The notes under the pieces are model-generated. The model saw only the letters and a list, made by a program, of their open reading frames with translations, did not search any database and was not told the origin of the DNA. The position numbers and the translations under genes are program-made. Shown here in pieces: positions 36,005 through 57,818 of a stretch of DNA of 64,000 nucleotides; the stretch's first letter is position 1; the number at the start of each line of letters is the position of its first letter. This stretch comes from an uncultured Lachnospiraceae bacterium (GTDB lineage Bacteria; Bacillota; Clostridia; Lachnospirales; Lachnospiraceae), in assembly GCA_947245585.1 (NCBI GenBank), contig CAMXPV010000022.1, positions 1 through 64,000 of the forward strand. Direction: 5' to 3'.

Positions 36005-37804
36005 CTATACCGCCGCTGTAACTTCTTTCAGCCAGTCCAGTTCCTCCCCCGTAAACCAGGTAAAATAGGGAGACAGCGTTTCATAGACCGTTTTGTGGTA
36101 ATCGTTTAGCAGCGTTTTCTCCTCTTCCGTCAACAGCCTGCCGTCAATGGCATCCCGGTCAAAGGGCACAAGGGTGAGCGGCTGCAGATACATAAACTGC
36201 CCGAAGTCGGTTTTTTCTCCCTTTCTGACCAGCACCAGATTCTCGTGACGGATGCCGTACTTTCCCGTCCTGTATAACCCCGGCTCGTTGGAAAGAATCA
36301 TCCCCTCCTCCAAGGGCACGCAGGCCGTATCCCTGGTAAGCCGCCACCGGAAGCTCTGGGGCCCTTCATGCACGCTCAAAAGATAACCCACGCCGTGTCC
36401 CGTGCCGTGGTTGTAATCCAGCCCCGCCTGCCACAGCGGTTCTCTTGCCAGTACATCCAGATTCTGTCCGCAGACACCCTCCAAAAACCGGGCGGCTCCC
36501 AACCGCAGATGTCCTTTTAACACCAGCGTATAGTCCCTCTTTTCCTCCGCCGTAGGCTCCCCCAAAGCAATGGTTCTGGTGATATCTGTCGTACCCTCCA
36601 AATAATGGCCTCCCGTATCTGCAAGACAGAATCCCTGAGGCCCCATAACCACATCCGTCTCCGGTGTCGCCTCGTAGTGGACGATGGCCCCGTGAGCCCC
36701 ATAGGCGATAATGGGATCAAAGCTTGGCCCAAGATAGCCGCCCATCCCGGAGCGAAGCTGCTCCAGTTTTCTGGCCGCGCTGATCTCCGTAATTTTCTCT
36801 TTTCCCACATGGGTTTTGAGCCAGTAAATAAATTTTGTCACCGCAAGCCCGTCCTTCAAATGGGCAGATCGTATTCCTGCTGTCTCCTGAGGCGTTTTCA
36901 CCGCCTTTAACCGTTCAATGGGACTTTTCCCGTCGATCCGCTCCGCCCCCGCAGGAACCGCCTGTAACAGCCTGTAACTGACCTTTCTCTCATCTACAAG
37001 CAGTTTCGTCCCCGCAGGCAGCGTTGCGATCCTTTCTTCCATACTAGCATAGGGCTGCAAAGACACCCCCGCACTCACCAGTTTTTCCCGTATCTCCCCG
37101 GAAAACGCCTGTTCCTGCGCACACAGTATCGCACGCTCTTTTGTCAGCAGAAGATAGGCGAGAAAAACAGGGGTATTTTTCACATCATTTCCCCGTAAGT
37201 TGAGCAGCCATGCAATTTCGTCGAGGGCAGTCGTCAAAAAAGCGTCAGCCTTCTGTTTGTCCAACTTTTCCCGTACCTTCGCAAGTTTTTCCTCCCGGGA
37301 AAGACCCGCATAGTCCGTCGAAAGTTCCCACACCGACTCCGCAGAAAGAGCCGGTCTTTCCTTCCAGACAAGGCCCGCCAAATCTTCCTCTTCGTAAAAA
37401 GAAATCTGTTTTTTTTCCGTCTTTTCTTTCAGCTTTTTGACAAATGCGCCGGTCACACAGCGGCCATCAAAACCTATGATATCTCCCTCAGAGAGATTGT
37501 CCGCCAGATAATCAGACAGCGCGGGCACGCCCGGCTGGCCGCTTTTCATCAGAATTATGCCGCTGTCCTTAAGCTGGCTTTCCGCCTGTAAAAAATATCT
37601 GCCGTCCGTCCACAGCGCCGCCCTCTCTTCTTCCACCAACAACGTCCCCGCAGACCCTGTAAAGCCAGACAGATACTCTCTTGCCTTGAAATAATCGCCC
37701 ACATATTCGGAGCTGTGAAAATCGTCCGTGGGAACAATATAGGCCGCAATGCTACGGCTGCGCATCTGTCTTCGGAGCGCCTGCAATCTCTCTGCCACCA
37801 CCAT
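36005..37804 (-). CDS. Aminopeptidase P family protein (M24B)
   Basis: A 599-residue metallopeptidase that cleaves X-Pro bonds. Two N-terminal creatinase-like domains (residues 1-310) precede the pita-bread catalytic domain. Metal ligands are visible in DTGGHYLEGTTDITRTI, HGTGHGVGYLLSVHEGP, ILSNEPGLYRTGKYGIRHENLVLV. The 600-residue length matches the eukaryote-like long form common in Lachnospiraceae. The ATG at 37804 has AAGGGAG; its first 53 bases overlap the end of the MATE gene. Cytoplasmic. Confidence 0.95.
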   Translation of the reverse strand: MVVAERLQALRRQMRSRSIAAYIVPTDDFHSSEYVGDYFKAREYLSGFTGSAGTLLVEEERAALWTDGRYFLQAESQLKDSGIILMKSGQPGVPALSDYLADNLSEGDIIGFDGRCVTGAFVKKLKEKTEKKQISFYEEEDLAGLVWKERPALSAESVWELSTDYAGLSREEKLAKVREKLDKQKADAFLTTALDEIAWLLNLRGNDVKNTPVFLAYLLLTKERAILCAQEQAFSGEIREKLVSAGVSLQPYASMEERIATLPAGTKLLVDERKVSYRLLQAVPAGAERIDGKSPIERLKAVKTPQETAGIRSAHLKDGLAVTKFIYWLKTHVGKEKITEISAARKLEQLRSGMGGYLGPSFDPIIAYGAHGAIVHYEATPETDVVMGPQGFCLADTGGHYLEGTTDITRTIALGEPTAEEKRDYTLVLKGHLRLGAARFLEGVCGQNLDVLAREPLWQAGLDYNHGTGHGVGYLLSVHEGPQSFRWRLTRDTACVPLEEGMILSNEPGLYRTGKYGIRHENLVLVRKGEKTDFGQFMYLQPLTLVPFDRDAIDGRLLTEEEKTLLNDYHKTVYETLSPYFTWFTGEELDWLKEVTAAV

Positions 37805-39158
37805 CTCTTTCTCCCTTCCCCGCGCGCACCTTCGGATTACTCCAAAAGGCCCAAAGCAGTTCCATATCCATAAAAAGCCAGATCACCGGCTCACAAAATA
37901 TCACCGCCATATATTGAAATCTGGGTATCAGAAAAGCCACAAACAGATATTTACCGATTAATTCAATCACACTGGAAACAATGGGCAGAATTTTATTGCC
38001 GATGCTCTGTAGGGCAAACCGGCTGGGATTTAACAGCGCAAGAATCATCAGACAGGGGGCAACCACCTGCAAATATAGCGCGCCGTTTTCGATCACCACC
38101 GCCTCCGAAGAACCGGACAGCAGCCGTACCATCGTCGGTGCAAGCGGAACCGTAAGCACTGTGATCGCCGCCGTCAAAACCGCGCCGCACAGATAGGAGT
38201 ATTTAACCGCCCTGCGAATCCGCCCCATCTGTCCCGCGCCGTAGTTTTGCGCCACAAAAGTGCTGACTGTCTGACTGACCGCCATGTAAGGCATCATTAA
38301 AAACATGAACAGCTTTCTGGCCGCCACATGCCCCGCAATCACCAGATAACCCAAACTGTTAATGCCGGACTGTAAAACGGCAGACCCCGCATGGACAATA
38401 CTGCTCATAATGGCCATGGAAAAACCCTGCGCCAACATTTCCTGATAGAGCTCCCTTTCCCAGATAAAATGCACCCTTTTCGGAATCAGTATCTCCGCCT
38501 TTTTTCCGATGTAAACCAGACAGGCAATCACCGATACCCCCTGCGCAATCACTGTGGCTGCCGCCGCTCCCTGTACGCCCATGGAAAGCCGGGTGATAAA
38601 GAAAAAATCCAATACAATATTTAGCAGTGATGACAGGATCAAAAAGAACAAAGGCATCACGCTGTTTCCTATGGCGCGCAGAAGTCCTGCACACAGATTA
38701 TAGGCAAACATAACCCCTATAAACAATATAATCGTAAAAATATAGGCATATGCCTGATCCAAAATTTCCACGGGCGTATGTAAGATTTCCAAAAAAGGCC
38801 GGAGAATCAAACTGCCTCCCGCTGTGATGACCGCCGTAATGCTGATACCAATCACAACGGAAGCCGCCACTGATCTTTTTAAGTGATCTGTATCGCCGCT
38901 GCCAAAGCTTCTGGCCGTCACGATGGCAAGCCCGTTGCCAATCCCCAACGCAAAACCGACCAGAAGATCATAGACAGCCCCTGCCGCGCCCATGGCGGCA
39001 AGTGCCTCATCCCCCAACGTATGCCCGATAATCACCGTGTCCATGGTATTGTAAAGCTGTTGAAAAACGCCGGAAAAGAAAAGCGGAACCGCAAAAACGA
39101 GCATCGCTTTTAGGATCGGCCCGTGCAGCAAATCCACCTCAAATTTCTTCTGTGCCAT
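37752..39158 (-). CDS. MATE family efflux transporter
   Basis: A 468-residue twelve-helix MATE protein (KAMLVFAVPLFFSGVFQQLYNTMDTVIIGHTLGDEALAAMG at the start). Its C-terminal tail (VRAGKGERDGGGREIAGAPKTDAQP) overlaps the start of the aminopeptidase gene by 53 bases. Ribosome binding site is weak. The cupin gene lies 30 bases upstream on the same strand. Confidence 0.93.
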   Translation of the reverse strand: MAQKKFEVDLLHGPILKAMLVFAVPLFFSGVFQQLYNTMDTVIIGHTLGDEALAAMGAAGAVYDLLVGFALGIGNGLAIVTARSFGSGDTDHLKRSVAASVVIGISITAVITAGGSLILRPFLEILHTPVEILDQAYAYIFTIILFIGVMFAYNLCAGLLRAIGNSVMPLFFLILSSLLNIVLDFFFITRLSMGVQGAAAATVIAQGVSVIACLVYIGKKAEILIPKRVHFIWERELYQEMLAQGFSMAIMSSIVHAGSAVLQSGINSLGYLVIAGHVAARKLFMFLMMPYMAVSQTVSTFVAQNYGAGQMGRIRRAVKYSYLCGAVLTAAITVLTVPLAPTMVRLLSGSSEAVVIENGALYLQVVAPCLMILALLNPSRFALQSIGNKILPIVSSVIELIGKYLFVAFLIPRFQYMAVIFCEPVIWLFMDMELLWAFWSNPKVRAGKGERDGGGREIAGAPKTDAQP

Positions 39159-39188
39159 GATTTTTATTCTGCCGTATTTTCCTCCGTC

Positions 39189-39518
39189 TTACTGTTCCGG
39201 CACCACCGCATAAAATTCAATCGGTTCGCTGCTCTCGTTTCTCAAGCTGTGGCTGTGCCCTTTGGGACAATAGTGACAGCTTCCGGCGGGCAGCGTCTCT
39301 TTCCCACCGTCATATAAAACCACACCCGTCCCCTCTAACATAAAAATGATCTCGCTGTTGGTCTCGTGGGTATGTACCCCAATCGTCGCTCCCGGCTCTA
39401 AAGAGCCCCGCATAATTTTGCAGGACTCGTCCGTATACATGCGTGTCTGAAACTGTTTCTCCCCGCCTTTAAAGTTGGGGATGATCTGTTCTTCGATGGT
39501 GTCAAAATTTAAAATCAT
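39189..39518 (-). CDS. Small cupin domain protein
   Basis: A 109-residue single-domain cupin. The metal-site motifs are GVHTHETNSEIIFMLEG (first, with His-x-His and Glu) and HYCPKGHSHSL (second His). The ATG at 39518 has AGGAGGACAG. The longer frame from 39563 has no site. Could be an isomerase or a small-molecule sensor; not specified by sequence. It starts the MATE/peptidase/aldolase run. Confidence 0.88.
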   Translation of the reverse strand: MILNFDTIEEQIIPNFKGGEKQFQTRMYTDESCKIMRGSLEPGATIGVHTHETNSEIIFMLEGTGVVLYDGGKETLPAGSCHYCPKGHSHSLRNESSEPIEFYAVVPEQ

Positions 39519-39612
39519 AATCGCTGTCCTCCTGCTCCTAACTCTCCGGCTGCCAACAAACATATCAACAATTTTATTATATCGCTAACGCCAAATGTGT
39601 ACAAACATAATT

Positions 39613-40887
39613 TTAGCACATCTTGAAAAGAAGCCACTTCCCCTTTACAAACCTTATCGTAAAAATAATTGCTCTGACAATCCAATCCACAAACATGCCA
39701 ATCCACACTCCAGTAAGGCCCAGTTGAAACACCTTTACGAGAAAAATTCCCAGTGCCACACGGCACCCCCACATAATACTGACAGAGGCTATCATGGAAA
39801 ATTTCACGTCCCCCGCTGCCCGAAGTCCATAGGGAAGTCCAAACGCGCCTACCCATATAAAAGGTTTTATCACGGTCATTGCAATCACCAATTCAAAACA
39901 CATTTGCGCTGCTGCAGGCTCCATACCGGCAAGCCATGTCACAGGCTTTGTAATTGCCAATACCAAAAGACAGGAAACCAATGTCCCAACCCCTGCAATA
40001 CCCATCAGCTTTACAATATAATACTTTGCCTCCTCTTTCCTGTCCGCACCAATGCACTGACCAACCACCGTCATCAGCCCAATCCCTACGCTATTCCCGA
40101 AAATACCGTTCACATTCTCCAAAATGTTTGTCATTGCCTGTGCCGACATTGCTATTGTCCCCATCGTCGAGACCGTGGACTGGACGGCAAGTTTTCCAAA
40201 CTGAAACATGCCGTTTTCAATCCCTGCCGGAACGCCTATCGCCATAATTGTTAAGATCAGCGCCACATCGGGACGAATTTTTAAATAATCCCTTACTACA
40301 ATTGTCTGCCCGGACTTTCTCAGGCAGTAAAAAATCACGGCAGTACAAAATACTCTTGCCAGAAGCGTTGCGAAAGCAGCCCCCGCCACGCCCCACTGAA
40401 ATCCATAAAGAAACAAAGCGTTTCCCATTACATTTATGATATTGGAAACAACGGATACTTTTGCCGGAAACCTTGCGTTGCCGGATGCCCTGTAGAATGC
40501 GGCCCCTGCACTGAACAATGCCAAAAATGGATAGGAAATTGCCGTTATCATAAAATAGACCAATGCATTTTTCATAACGGAATCCTCAACTGTCCCAAAC
40601 AGCAGCCGTAAAAGCCTCTCTCCACCCAACATGCAAAATACCATTATCGAAAATGAAATAATGAATACGGTAAACACTACCTGTCCCGCAGCCCTATTGC
40701 TTTCTTTTTTGTTTCCGCTGCCGATATATTGCGAGCAAACGATTGTCGCGCCGGATGCCATTGCCGAGAATATCTGTATGACAAGATTATTGATCGAATC
40801 CACAAGCGACACCGCCGATATTGCCTCGCTTCCAACAGTCGAAACCATCATCGTATCCATCATCCCCAAAAGTACATGCGTTTTCAC
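39613..40887 (-). CDS. MATE family transporter, probably 5'-truncated
   Basis: A 424-residue MATE-type protein starting with GTG and reading (M)KTHVLLGMMDTMMVSTVGSEAISAVSLVDSINNLVIQIFSAMASG, followed by the usual helices and a typical C-terminus FVKGKWLLFKMC. Normal family members have 15-25 more residues before MMDTMMVS; an in-frame stop lies just before the GTG and no ribosome binding site is visible. The start of helix 1 therefore seems lost, so the protein may be inactive or use an unseen start. The body is otherwise intact. Confidence 0.75.
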   Translation of the reverse strand: MKTHVLLGMMDTMMVSTVGSEAISAVSLVDSINNLVIQIFSAMASGATIVCSQYIGSGNKKESNRAAGQVVFTVFIISFSIMVFCMLGGERLLRLLFGTVEDSVMKNALVYFMITAISYPFLALFSAGAAFYRASGNARFPAKVSVVSNIINVMGNALFLYGFQWGVAGAAFATLLARVFCTAVIFYCLRKSGQTIVVRDYLKIRPDVALILTIMAIGVPAGIENGMFQFGKLAVQSTVSTMGTIAMSAQAMTNILENVNGIFGNSVGIGLMTVVGQCIGADRKEEAKYYIVKLMGIAGVGTLVSCLLVLAITKPVTWLAGMEPAAAQMCFELVIAMTVIKPFIWVGAFGLPYGLRAAGDVKFSMIASVSIMWGCRVALGIFLVKVFQLGLTGVWIGMFVDWIVRAIIFTIRFVKGKWLLFKMC

Positions 40888-41035: not shown

Positions 41036-41449
41036 ATGAGTTATGATTTAATGGTCTATGAAAAAACAAAAGCCCCCAATACACGAAAAGAATTTATGGA
41101 ATGGTTTGAGCAGCAGACCGAATGGAGTGAGGATCATGACTACCAGTCTATCAGCGTATCATCCCCCTCATTACAGAATTGGTTTATGGAAATGAAAGAT
41201 ACATTTCCTCCCATGAACGGCGAATATGCACCGGATATGGAATTGCTTTCCGAAGATGAGAATTTAGAAAACCATGTGACAGACTATTGTATTGGCCGGG
41301 AAGTAATCTATACGGCATTTGCCTGGTCAGTGGCGGATGAGGCTTATGAACTCATGCGAAGATTGGCCCAGAAACACGATGTCGGATTTTTTGATGTAAG
41401 CAGCGACAACGGCGACATTATTTTGCCGGATGGAAGCATGATAACTTAA
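41036..41449 (+). CDS. Small conserved-looking protein of unknown function
   Basis: A 137-residue soluble acidic protein (MSYDLMVYEKTKAPNTRKEFMEWFEQQTEWSEDHDYQS). No signal or membrane segment. Aromatic and charged residues are frequent, and the C-terminus AFAWSVADEAYELMRRLAQKHDVGFFDVSSDNGDIILPDG resembles a structured domain. Start follows GAGGAGG, and a consensus promoter lies directly upstream. I do not recognise the family. It lies upstream of the Lsa-type gene and its leader; no link is evident. Confidence 0.8.
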   Translation: MSYDLMVYEKTKAPNTRKEFMEWFEQQTEWSEDHDYQSISVSSPSLQNWFMEMKDTFPPMNGEYAPDMELLSEDENLENHVTDYCIGREVIYTAFAWSVADEAYELMRRLAQKHDVGFFDVSSDNGDIILPDGSMIT

Positions 41450-41495
41450 CAGAAAATGTTTCTTATGATAAAGTTTTACGGAGAGAGGTTGAAAA

Positions 41496-41507
41496 ATGAA
41501 GAAATAA
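41496..41507 (+). CDS. Three-codon leader ORF (Met-Lys-Lys)
   Basis: ATG AAG AAA TAA, seven bases after GGAGAGAGG. It is far too short to be a protein gene, but its position inside the leader, with its ribosome binding site forming one arm of the terminator-like structure, makes it a likely sensing ORF for stalled ribosomes. Translation is inferred, not shown. Confidence 0.55.
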   Translation: MKK

Positions 41508-41536
41508 TCTACTTTTGATTGCATGATGGTTTTGTT

Positions 41537-41565
41537 GTATGGAAATCCGTTTCCATACTGTTTTT
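41537..41565 (+). terminator. Leader hairpin terminator
   Basis: GTATGGAAA (41537-41545) pairs with TTTCCATAC (41550-41558), four-base loop, then TGTTTTT. It can act as an intrinsic terminator in the ABC-F leader. Confidence 0.65.
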
Positions 41566-41667
41566 CATGTCGCCAAAAGTGGATTATGTTCTCATAACCT
41601 CTCTCTTTTTGTATGCAAAAATATCCATGTCTCCGCCTGCAAAGGAACCTTAGAAAGGAGGGTGCAT

Positions 41668-43215
41668 ATGTCACAAATTAATATAACAAACCTGACATTT
41701 TCCTATGAGGGCAGCTTCGATGCCGTCTTTGAAAATGTGTCTTTTTCTATTGATACGAATTGGAACCTGGGATTGATCGGACGAAACGGCAAGGGAAAAA
41801 CGACCTTCCTGCGCCTGCTGACCGGAGCCCTTTCCTATCAGGGCAGTATCAGCGCAAACACCGCTTTCGACTATTTTCCTTACCATGTGACGGAGAATCA
41901 AAAGCGGCTTCCGGCCTCTGCCTTTATCGGGGATCTCAAACCGGGCTGCGAAGAATGGCGGGTCATCTGTGAACTTGCCGGGTTGGAGGAAACGGCGGAA
42001 ATTCTCTACCGCCCTTATCACACCCTGAGTTTTGGGGAACAGACTAAGCTTTTACTGGCAATTTTATTTTCCGATGAAAATGACTTTCTGCTCGTAGACG
42101 AACCCACAAACCATTTGGACAGCCAGGCCCGGGAAGCGGTAAAAAATTATCTTGCCTCCAAGAAAGGCTTTATTCTGGTGTCCCACGACCGGGATCTTTT
42201 GGATGCCTGCATCGATCATGTACTGGTGCTTAACCGGCAAACCATCGAAGTGCAGAGCGGTAATTTCTCCAGTTGGTGGGAAAACAAACAGCGGAAAGAC
42301 CAGTTTAATATGACAGAAAATGAAAAACATCTGAAAGAAATACAAAAACTGAAAAAGGCAGCCAGACGTACCGCGGACTGGGCCGATAAAAATGAGAGTA
42401 GAAAAATAGGTTTCGATCCCATTAAGGAGCATGACCGCAGCAAGGGAGCCCGCCCCTATATCGGCGCAAAGACGAAAAAGATGCAGCGCCGGGCTGCACA
42501 GATGACCAATAGAATTGAAAAAGAAATCGAGGAAAAGGAGGGACTCCTGCAGGATCTGGAAAAAACTGTGGACTTGAAACTGATGCCACTCTCCCATCAC
42601 AAAGAAAGACTTGTGAACATTCAGGATTACAGCCTGCAATATACAGACGCAGACTACCCTGTCTTTACCGATCTGACCTTTGAAATTTGTCAGGGAGACC
42701 GGGTTGCCCTACACGGAGAAAACGGCTGTGGCAAATCTTCTCTGATCAAAATGATTTTGCAAAAGGCAGATCGGAAAACCACTGCCGGTACAAGTCAGCC
42801 TTCCGGTCTTCCTGTCTCAGAAACCGGTGTCTGCGAAACGGCCTCCGGCCTGATTGTCTCCTATGTCAGTCAGGATACCTCCGGCCTGAAAGGTTCTCTT
42901 TCCGCATTCTGTGAAGAACGTGGTTTGGATTACACGCTGTTTTGCTCGCTTCTCAGACAACTTGATTTGGAAAGAATACAATTTTCAAAAAACATGGAAG
43001 ACTACTCGGAAGGACAAAAGAAAAAAGCGCTGATTGCGGCAAGTCTGCTCATGCCCGCCCACCTTTACATCTGGGACGAACCGCTCAACTATATCGACAT
43101 ATTTTCCAGAATGCAGATCGAGCGTTTGATTCTGGAATACCAGCCGACGCTGCTTTTTGTGGAACACGATGTGCGGTTTCGGGAGACGATTGCATCAAAG
43201 ATTATAAATCTTTAG
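41668..43215 (+). CDS. Lsa family ABC-F ribosomal protection protein
   Basis: A 515-residue cytoplasmic ABC-F protein with two ATPase domains and no membrane part. First Walker A GRNGKGKTT (38-46), signature LSFGEQTKLLLAI, Walker B FLLVDEPTNHLD; a charged interdomain linker about residues 190-310 (KAARRTADWADKNESRK); second Walker A GENGCGKSS and Walker B LYIWDEPLNYIDIF, characteristic of Lsa/Vga/Sal types. Such proteins remove lincosamides, streptogramins A or pleuromutilins from ribosomes. AAGGAGGG precedes the ATG at 41668. The regulatory leader upstream supports an antibiotic-responsive role. Whether it confers resistance cannot be told from sequence. Confidence 0.92.
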   Translation: MSQINITNLTFSYEGSFDAVFENVSFSIDTNWNLGLIGRNGKGKTTFLRLLTGALSYQGSISANTAFDYFPYHVTENQKRLPASAFIGDLKPGCEEWRVICELAGLEETAEILYRPYHTLSFGEQTKLLLAILFSDENDFLLVDEPTNHLDSQAREAVKNYLASKKGFILVSHDRDLLDACIDHVLVLNRQTIEVQSGNFSSWWENKQRKDQFNMTENEKHLKEIQKLKKAARRTADWADKNESRKIGFDPIKEHDRSKGARPYIGAKTKKMQRRAAQMTNRIEKEIEEKEGLLQDLEKTVDLKLMPLSHHKERLVNIQDYSLQYTDADYPVFTDLTFEICQGDRVALHGENGCGKSSLIKMILQKADRKTTAGTSQPSGLPVSETGVCETASGLIVSYVSQDTSGLKGSLSAFCEERGLDYTLFCSLLRQLDLERIQFSKNMEDYSEGQKKKALIAASLLMPAHLYIWDEPLNYIDIFSRMQIERLILEYQPTLLFVEHDVRFRETIASKIINL

Positions 43216-57746: not shown

Positions 57747-57818
57747 TGCACCCGACAGGACTCGAACCTGCATCAAAGGCGTCGGAGGCCTACGTTTTAT
57801 CCATTAGACTACGGGTGC
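57747..57818 (-). tRNA. tRNA-Arg (CCG)
   Basis: On the minus strand a 72-base cloverleaf: acceptor GCACCCG (57818-57812) pairs with CGGGTGC (57754-57748), the T-loop TTCGAGTCC is present, anticodon stem AGGC/GCCT with loop CTCCGAC gives anticodon CCG. Discriminator base A at 57747. CCA is not encoded. It lies between the SH3 gene and the DUF5688 gene. Confidence 0.93.

Follow-up and report, generated by a model that had tools for sequence, protein, structure and literature searches.

Background

Several genes for ABC-F proteins are described as being controlled by a leader that contains an upstream open reading frame (uORF) of only three codons. Here we compare with them the leader of an Lsa-like ABC-F gene of an uncultured Lachnospiraceae bacterium (assembly GCA_947245585.1, contig CAMXPV010000022.1, positions 1 to 64,000 of the forward strand; this whole stretch of 64,000 nucleotides (nt) is called the window). 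We consider it likely that the leader is a ribosome-mediated transcription attenuator of this chromosomal gene.

In Rli53/lmo0919 (vgaL) of Listeria monocytogenes, a three-amino-acid ORF is reported to overlap the anti-antiterminator/antiterminator, and lincomycin-stalled ribosomes open the gene (PMC8079631). Likened by description, this ABC-F gene with its three-amino-acid ORF follows the same plan as the relatives of the window leader; the window differs in being without region 3, the pairing partner in the antiterminator of its relatives, and without a second terminator. For vmlR of Bacillus subtilis, the start codon and ribosome binding site of the uORF are described as required for induction; its uORF encodes MIN, with MDN and MDK equally functional and MRK less so (PMC9226507). 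According to the same description, vmlR shares with the window a three-codon uORF and an anti-antiterminator hairpin around it, the base of this first hairpin being disrupted by the modelled stalled ribosome. The Shine-Dalgarno sequence (SD) of the vmlR uORF is, however, drawn as single-stranded 5´ of the hairpin, with the intrinsic terminator as a separate downstream hairpin (PMC9226507), whereas in the window the paired SD belongs to the stem that the T-run follows.

The cplR leader of Clostridioides difficile has a uORF encoding MR[I/M] and is described with premature termination before the ABC-F gene and induction by retapamulin and lincomycin (PMC10201436). The same account gives a three-codon uORF, MK[L/Q], for VmlR2, and its Figure 3 legend names an anti-SD element for CplR and VgaL. 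The three-codon uORF and the anti-SD element are thus shared by cplR and the window. As described there, however, cplR has two separate hairpins, its terminator hides the SD of cplR, and CplR belongs to an ABC-F subfamily other than that of the window protein. The gene lsaA, of the same protein family as the window gene, is listed with the uORF consensus MAGN, four codons (PMC10201436), and for lsa(E) of an enterococcal plasmid (locus L203) a simple scan of the 350 nt upstream listed no three-codon uORF with an SD. The are5sc leader of Streptomyces, likened by description, has like the window a three-codon uORF (MLV) before an ABC-F gene, and differs in being actinobacterial and in its TTG start. 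Toeprints are reported in which translation of its uORF was stopped by lincosamides, pristinamycin IIA and tiamulin, and not by erythromycin (PMC12421871).

Control of ABC-F genes by three-codon uORFs is already known. An earlier reading of the window, made from its letters alone (the sequence-only reading), took an ORF this short to be unusually compact; the published uORFs of Rli53/lmo0919, VmlR, VmlR2 and CplR contradict this. New are the leader family itself, which had no mention in titles or abstract openings across the literature searched, and its reduced form in the window. The tested three-codon attenuators of ABC-F genes are few, and the family sets 138 distinct leaders beside them. 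In Lachnospiraceae-like bacteria it would connect lincosamide/pleuromutilin-type resistance with a drug-sensing RNA. Leaders with two terminators, with one, with region 3 at the start codon, or lost altogether form a natural series in which the necessary part of the switch could be sought, and searches with the leader model may bring up further drug-responsive genes.

The leader in the window

The three-codon ORF, ATG AAG AAA TAA, can be read directly behind its ribosome binding site GAGAGAGG. The arm GAGAGAGGTT is the exact reverse complement of AACCTCTCTC (41596-41605); the 10 base pairs (bp) contain zero mismatches, and TTTTT stands immediately 3´ of this anti-SD. Further inside, TAATCTACTTTTG (41505-41517) and CAAAAGTGGATTA (41574-41586) form 13 bp including one G-U, and a middle hairpin (41537-41558) is followed by TGTTTTT. 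All these elements had been noticed in the sequence-only reading and were recovered as described. The predicted fold joins the three pairings into a single continuous hairpin (hairpin 1); they are not alternatives. The 28-base pattern of SD and uORF has a single occurrence in the genome, even with up to three mismatches allowed. Coordinates are collected in Table 1.

Table 1. Features of the leader and of the gene behind it (positions in the window)
Feature	Position	Strand	Basis
Promoter-like site: -35 TTAACA, 17 nt, extended -10 TGaTAAAGT	41446..41474	+	Consensus scan 9/12; aligns with the promoter of the relatives
uORF ribosome binding site GAGAGAGG, left base arm of hairpin 1/terminator T1	41481..41490	+	10-bp exact complement; pair probabilities 0.98-1.0
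Three-codon uORF, Met-Lys-Lys-stop	41496..41507	+	Direct reading; kept across leaders
Upper hairpin 1: 41505-41517/41574-41586, CATGA/TCATG helix, apical hairpin 41537-41558 with short T-run (possible pause signal)	41505..41586	+	Fold, consensus structure, pair counts
Right arm of hairpin 1 (region 2), 3´ end = anti-SD AACCTCTCTC	41574..41605	+	Direct reading, consensus structure
T-run of terminator T1	41606..41610	+	Direct reading; T-richness kept in leaders
Deletion junction, about 95 nt of the nearest relative L002 (region 3 and terminator T2) gone	41611..41628	+	Alignment with L002 and L010
ABC-F ribosome binding site AAGGAGG	41655..41661	+	Direct reading
Lsa-like ABC-F ribosome protection protein, 515 amino acids	41668..43215	+	NCBIfam profiles, solved-structure match

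The minimum free energy (MFE) of 41460-41670 is -63.7 kcal/mol, compared with a mean of -42.75 (sd 4) in 200 dinucleotide shuffles, none of which was as good (z -5.24). The probabilities in Table 1 for the ten SD:anti-SD pairs refer to a transcript ending at the T-run. It had been proposed that a ribosome on the uORF would take this structure apart, and the computed folds agree: when 41480-41512 was held unpaired, as by a ribosome on the AUG with the +16 edge of its footprint borrowed from the vmlR toeprint, the MFE of the leader changed from -51.2 to -21.2 kcal/mol and the SD:anti-SD base became impossible. Judged by folding, a ribosome stalled on the uORF of the window would open the hairpin whose left arm contains this uORF.

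In 119 of 133 leaders, versus 53 of 1330 shuffles, the 95 nt upstream of the uORF contain a promoter of the form TTGACA-17-TAgAAT, and the -10 element of the relatives usually ends 29 or 30 nt 5´ of the uORF start. In the alignment with L002, about 9 nt are absent from the window between the -10 element and the SD. Because of this absence the predicted start adjoins the SD, and the window transcript should begin at or next to it, about 41480-41482. The sequence-only reading depended on a transcript starting no further downstream than 41510; both the predicted promoter and the predicted start lie upstream of this position. Just 5´ of the leader promoter there is an ORF of 137 amino acids (41036-41449, plus strand), whose stop codon overlaps the -35 element. 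Neither Pfam nor NCBIfam has a match to its product, and the related loci compared contain no homologue of it.

Conservation of the leader

We compared 80 homologous loci with 65-83% protein identity, mostly Lachnospiraceae and Ruminococcus-like by their titles, and the same leader is evident in most of them by eye and by pattern. A regular expression caught 67 of 100 distinct loci and missed 33; the covariance model was built from 30 hand-picked leaders, namely the window and 29 of these 67. At E <= 0.001 the model finds the leader on the coding strand in 78 of the 80 homologous loci; 29 of the loci had supplied leaders for its building. Used alone to search genomes, with stricter filters by which weak matches are lost, it has matches in 52 of the 77 genus genomes, 48 of the 397 family genomes and 2 of the 391 in a sample of the class, both of the latter belonging to the window's genus (the window's own genome is counted in each). 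Among 88 model-found loci examined, 84 have an ABC-F start at most 450 nt downstream; this set omits 8 further matched places that were already in the set of ABC-F homologues and one of two copies of one place. One of the 84, L198, precedes an ABC-F protein that is just 21% identical.

Removal of exact duplicates alone brought the 167 loci down to 138 distinct leaders, which are therefore not phylogenetically independent. A start codon was found at the site in 133 of the 138, the uORF has exactly three codons in 126, and it reads Met-Lys/Arg-X in 115. One of the five leaders in which no start was found, L188, shows ATG AAG AGA TAA at the edge of a short match. In the 30 chosen leaders 95.8% of cells are paired (98.5% in helix 1), as against 40-61% with slid partners, and two-sided changes that keep pairing occupy 39 cells versus 13.7 in shuffles, although these counts lean towards structure, as the leader set is chosen and related. 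The anticipated conservation of the three-codon ORF and its pairings in homologues is borne out by these figures.

In 121 of 133 leaders, T makes up at least five of the 8 nt that follow the anti-SD, a richness reached by 16.6% of all 8-nt segments of the same leaders; the 12 leaders below five T include misplaced anti-SD calls. Such a T-rich stretch is expected if hairpin 1 is itself a terminator (T1). A perfect SD:anti-SD run of 10 bp, the longest among the 133, is present in only 5 of them, the window included, and the commonest length is 8 bp.

The ORF and its pairings are genuine. A chance hairpin is untenable because the leader is conserved at homologous loci, and it is rejected by the shuffle z-score, the pair counts and the model matches alike. 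We also rejected a catalogued RNA: at gathering scores the sole Rfam match in the window is a tRNA at 57747-57818, and six relatives searched at E <= 0.1 gave two matches, neither of them at the leader. Near one related ABC-F locus there is a TPP riboswitch (RF00059, 67 bits; L072:406-513, minus strand), with no connection seen. Spread of the leader by plasmids or phages was considered as well and is not favoured: blastn with 41474-41670 gave no match in the two collections searched.

A predicted second terminator in the relatives and the reduced form

Behind T1, a second terminator-like hairpin (T2), invisible to the sequence-only reading, is found in 110 of 134 leaders with an ABC-F start, by a detector that also fires on 80 of 399 shuffled regions. 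A simpler detector missed T2 in 26 of 138 leaders, several of them visibly with it (L008, L011, L014). T2 is often of the form GGAACTGTTTGGC..C..GGTTC-TTTTTT. When the RNA is cut after the left side of T2, the expected number of pairs between region 2 and region 3 rises from 4.95 with the uORF free to 26.95 with the uORF blocked, as opposed to 8.07 when region 3 is randomised by 5 mononucleotide shuffles per leader. On blocking, 84 of 90 leaders gain at least 5 such pairs, while L016, L020 and L046 go the opposite way; the 90 are those whose detected T2 holds a GG[CT] motif in the hairpin, which leans the result towards pairing. As modelled, the relatives would have a complete set of anti-antiterminator, antiterminator and terminator, as in the Rli53 plan.

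In the window, region 3, its motif and T2 are absent, and no separate terminator with a mutually exclusive antiterminator was found there. The alignment with L002 places the gap of about 95 nt before a 19-nt 3´ flank (41628-41646) that is identical in both, and only 51-57 nt separate T1 from the ABC-F start. The window is one of 9 leaders classed as having T1 only. A run of at least five T behind the anti-SD is kept in 22 of 24 leaders without T2. As in other short-uORF attenuators, a uORF with its own ribosome binding site precedes the ABC-F gene, and uORF and structure are conserved. Judging from the sequence, the compact single-switch model would fit the window locus, as a reduced descendant of a larger switch. 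The modelled folds suggest that it functions like the leaders of the Rli53, vmlR and cplR kind, minus one usual part.

Other leaders are modified in a different manner. In 15 of 134 the region-3 motif precedes the ABC-F start and no terminator is present; in 14 of these it lies 19-33 nt from the start. In L164, L080, L062, L161 and others the motif, TTTGGC, adjoins the ABC-F ribosome binding site itself. It is as if these leaders had been rewired from transcription to translation control. The computed accessibility of the ABC-F SD in the 15 changes on blocking from a mean of 0.25 to 0.36, with a clear rise in L062, L045 and L009; it rises in some of them (L080 included) and not in all. Near relative L013 (leader 1885-2028) has lost the lower right arm with the anti-SD, T1 and T2, and its hairpin runs into the ABC-F start. 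It is perhaps a natural case of lost control.

Proposed mechanism

By analogy with the tested leaders, we infer termination, translation of the uORF, stalling, drug spectrum, induction and resistance, and propose the following course of events. Without drug, RNA polymerase would make the leader while the uORF stays untranslated, or is read and released at once. The leader would then zip from the inside out into one long hairpin, whose base is formed by the ribosome binding site of the uORF and the anti-SD, and transcription would end at the T-run. A drug that blocks the first peptide bonds (by analogy a lincosamide, pleuromutilin or streptogramin A) would hold a ribosome at the AUG of the uORF. 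The held ribosome would cover about 41480-41512 and keep the base of the hairpin open, and transcription would proceed into the ABC-F gene. For most relatives, an antiterminator might arise as well between the right arm, once freed, and the left side of T2. In the window the second module is gone, and the first switch alone would remain.

The sequence-only reading had placed the stalled ribosome on Met-Lys-Lys, where it would block the left arms and let transcription pass. One half of this proposal is supported: that the left arm would be kept open agrees with the conservation and with the analogy to tested leaders. The other half, Met-Lys-Lys as the peptide that is read, is not supported. The uORF products at the site are MRR (42), MKR (29), MRK (18), MRI (11) and only then MKK (9) among the 138 distinct leaders, and the frame differs in a few of them. 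Drugs of the expected class are reported to stall ribosomes at the start codon with little sequence dependence (PMC10201436, PMC12421871). Peptide-specific stalling was lowered as a candidate on these grounds; by analogy, the ribosome probably stalls at the start codon. Pairing can account for much of the codon identity, too, since AUGAGAA of the uORF region pairs with UUCUCAU of the right arm.

Evaluation of alternatives

The attenuator that we propose starts from what is legible in the DNA: the uORF, the pairings, the T-run, the promoter-like site, their conservation, the second module of the relatives and its apparent absence from the window. Several observations weigh against it. The window is without T2, its distance from -10 to SD is about 9 nt shorter, and its -35 and -10 elements match the consensus less well than L002's do; decay of the leader is therefore conceivable. 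The loss of the T2 module could also be a fault of the single assembly. Hairpin 1 spans about 125 nt on closing, which is long for an intrinsic terminator, and in the relatives it might act purely as an anti-antiterminator. With the uORF blocked, the freed right arm of the window refolds on itself weakly (probability of 0.51 that 41602 is paired), and with 41480-41518 blocked 41574-41579 pairs with the T-run itself. Such partial refolding would, as modelled, make no terminator, yet it shows that the freed state is not simple. In the relatives, T2 mostly stays formed in the equilibrium fold with the uORF blocked: its mean falls from 0.89 to 0.79, with a drop of more than 0.3 in just 13 of 103 leaders and a rise in 1. 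We rejected equilibrium loss of T2 on this count, and for the same reason the antiterminator can be claimed only as a kinetic one; antitermination in the relatives would have to be kinetic. Covariation helps little. Same-branch changes on the tree number 1 (0.25 expected) and 2 (1.11 expected) for two region 2:region 3 pairs. Watson-Crick pairs at one of three antiterminator positions number 72 of 94, with a maximum of 68 in 1000 shuffles, while the other two positions show no excess (49 versus a shuffle maximum of 51, and 89 versus 91). A strong covariation argument was rejected on both counts, two of the three positions being within the shuffles; because covariation is thin, the antiterminator claim rests on complementarity.

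The blocked fold of 41480-41518 offers an observation in its own right: CAAAAG of the right arm (41574-41579) pairs there with the T-run and the following G (41606-41611). In the reduced leader this modelled pairing is possibly a small built-in antiterminator.

If the leader is decayed, hairpin 1, a former anti-antiterminator, would be a weak or non-functional terminator without T2, and the ABC-F gene would be expressed more or less constantly. The loss of region 3 and T2 and the altered promoter point in this direction, as does L013, in which the loss of the anti-SD, T1 and T2 indicates that control seems to be lost at times in this group. A decaying leader would nevertheless hardly be expected with the SD:anti-SD stem of the window, which is perfect, longer than in 128 of 133 leaders and directly followed by five T; its uORF is intact, too, and the T-runs persist in nearly all leaders without T2. 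We consider decay unlikely. Much less room is left for a switch that acts mainly on translation of the ABC-F gene by hiding and freeing its ribosome binding site, without termination. The 15 leaders with the region-3 motif at the ABC-F start, and the computed rise of SD accessibility in them, are what such a switch would predict. In the window, which is without this motif, the computed accessibility of the ABC-F SD falls instead, from 0.45 with the uORF free to 0.29 with it blocked, and the conserved T-runs count against control at this level; it is very improbable here. The leader might finally sense a metabolite (as a riboswitch), a tRNA (as a T-box) or a protein, the short ORF being incidental. 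Its high conservation and closed structure would suit such a sensor. Against it stand the retention of SD, AUG and stop at this position in most leaders, the lack of an Rfam match at the leader of the window or the six relatives, and the ABC-F gene downstream in 84 of 88 loci. We regard this possibility as hardly credible.

The ABC-F gene and other genes behind the leader

The window protein scores 431.1 bits with NCBIfam NF000355 (ribosomal protection-like ABC-F), above the cut-off of 380. The best NCBIfam model listed is NF000167 (Lsa), matched over the full length with 626 bits (E 5.1e-188). Because this score is below the curated cut-off of 750, the protein is by its sequence best called Lsa-like rather than filed as Lsa. 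Lsa(A) (7nhk) is the best match among solved structures (E 9.4e-112), identity with Lsa(E) is 52%, and the CplR model gives 157 bits versus a cut-off of 780. Two genes for MATE-type efflux transporters lie upstream of the ABC-F gene on the minus strand (37752-40887).

Some leaders precede other genes. In L152 a two-terminator leader (1501-1644) stands directly before a plain GNAT acetyltransferase gene, and in L150 such a leader (1501-1644) stands directly before a gene with a P-loop-like start, judged by eye, and a C-terminal GNAT acetyltransferase domain. Both downstream genes are possibly unrecognised drug-response genes. We may combine these suggestions into one bolder picture: a one-hairpin attenuator whose sensor is the terminator helix itself, with no need of a separate antiterminator, descended from a two-terminator ancestor and compensated by its long SD:anti-SD stem, within a family that serves as a portable drug-sensing cassette and counts the GNAT genes among its drug-response genes. 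As a whole, this picture is tentative, and we would sooner doubt than assert it.

In L149, the leader has T2 and is trailed by a short open frame; 333 nt downstream of the leader comes a gene for a calcineurin-like phosphoesterase in place of an ABC-F gene. In L171, a stub of an ABC-F start stands behind the leader, and the next gene resembles, by eye, a MATE transporter; the ABC-F gene appears to have been lost there.

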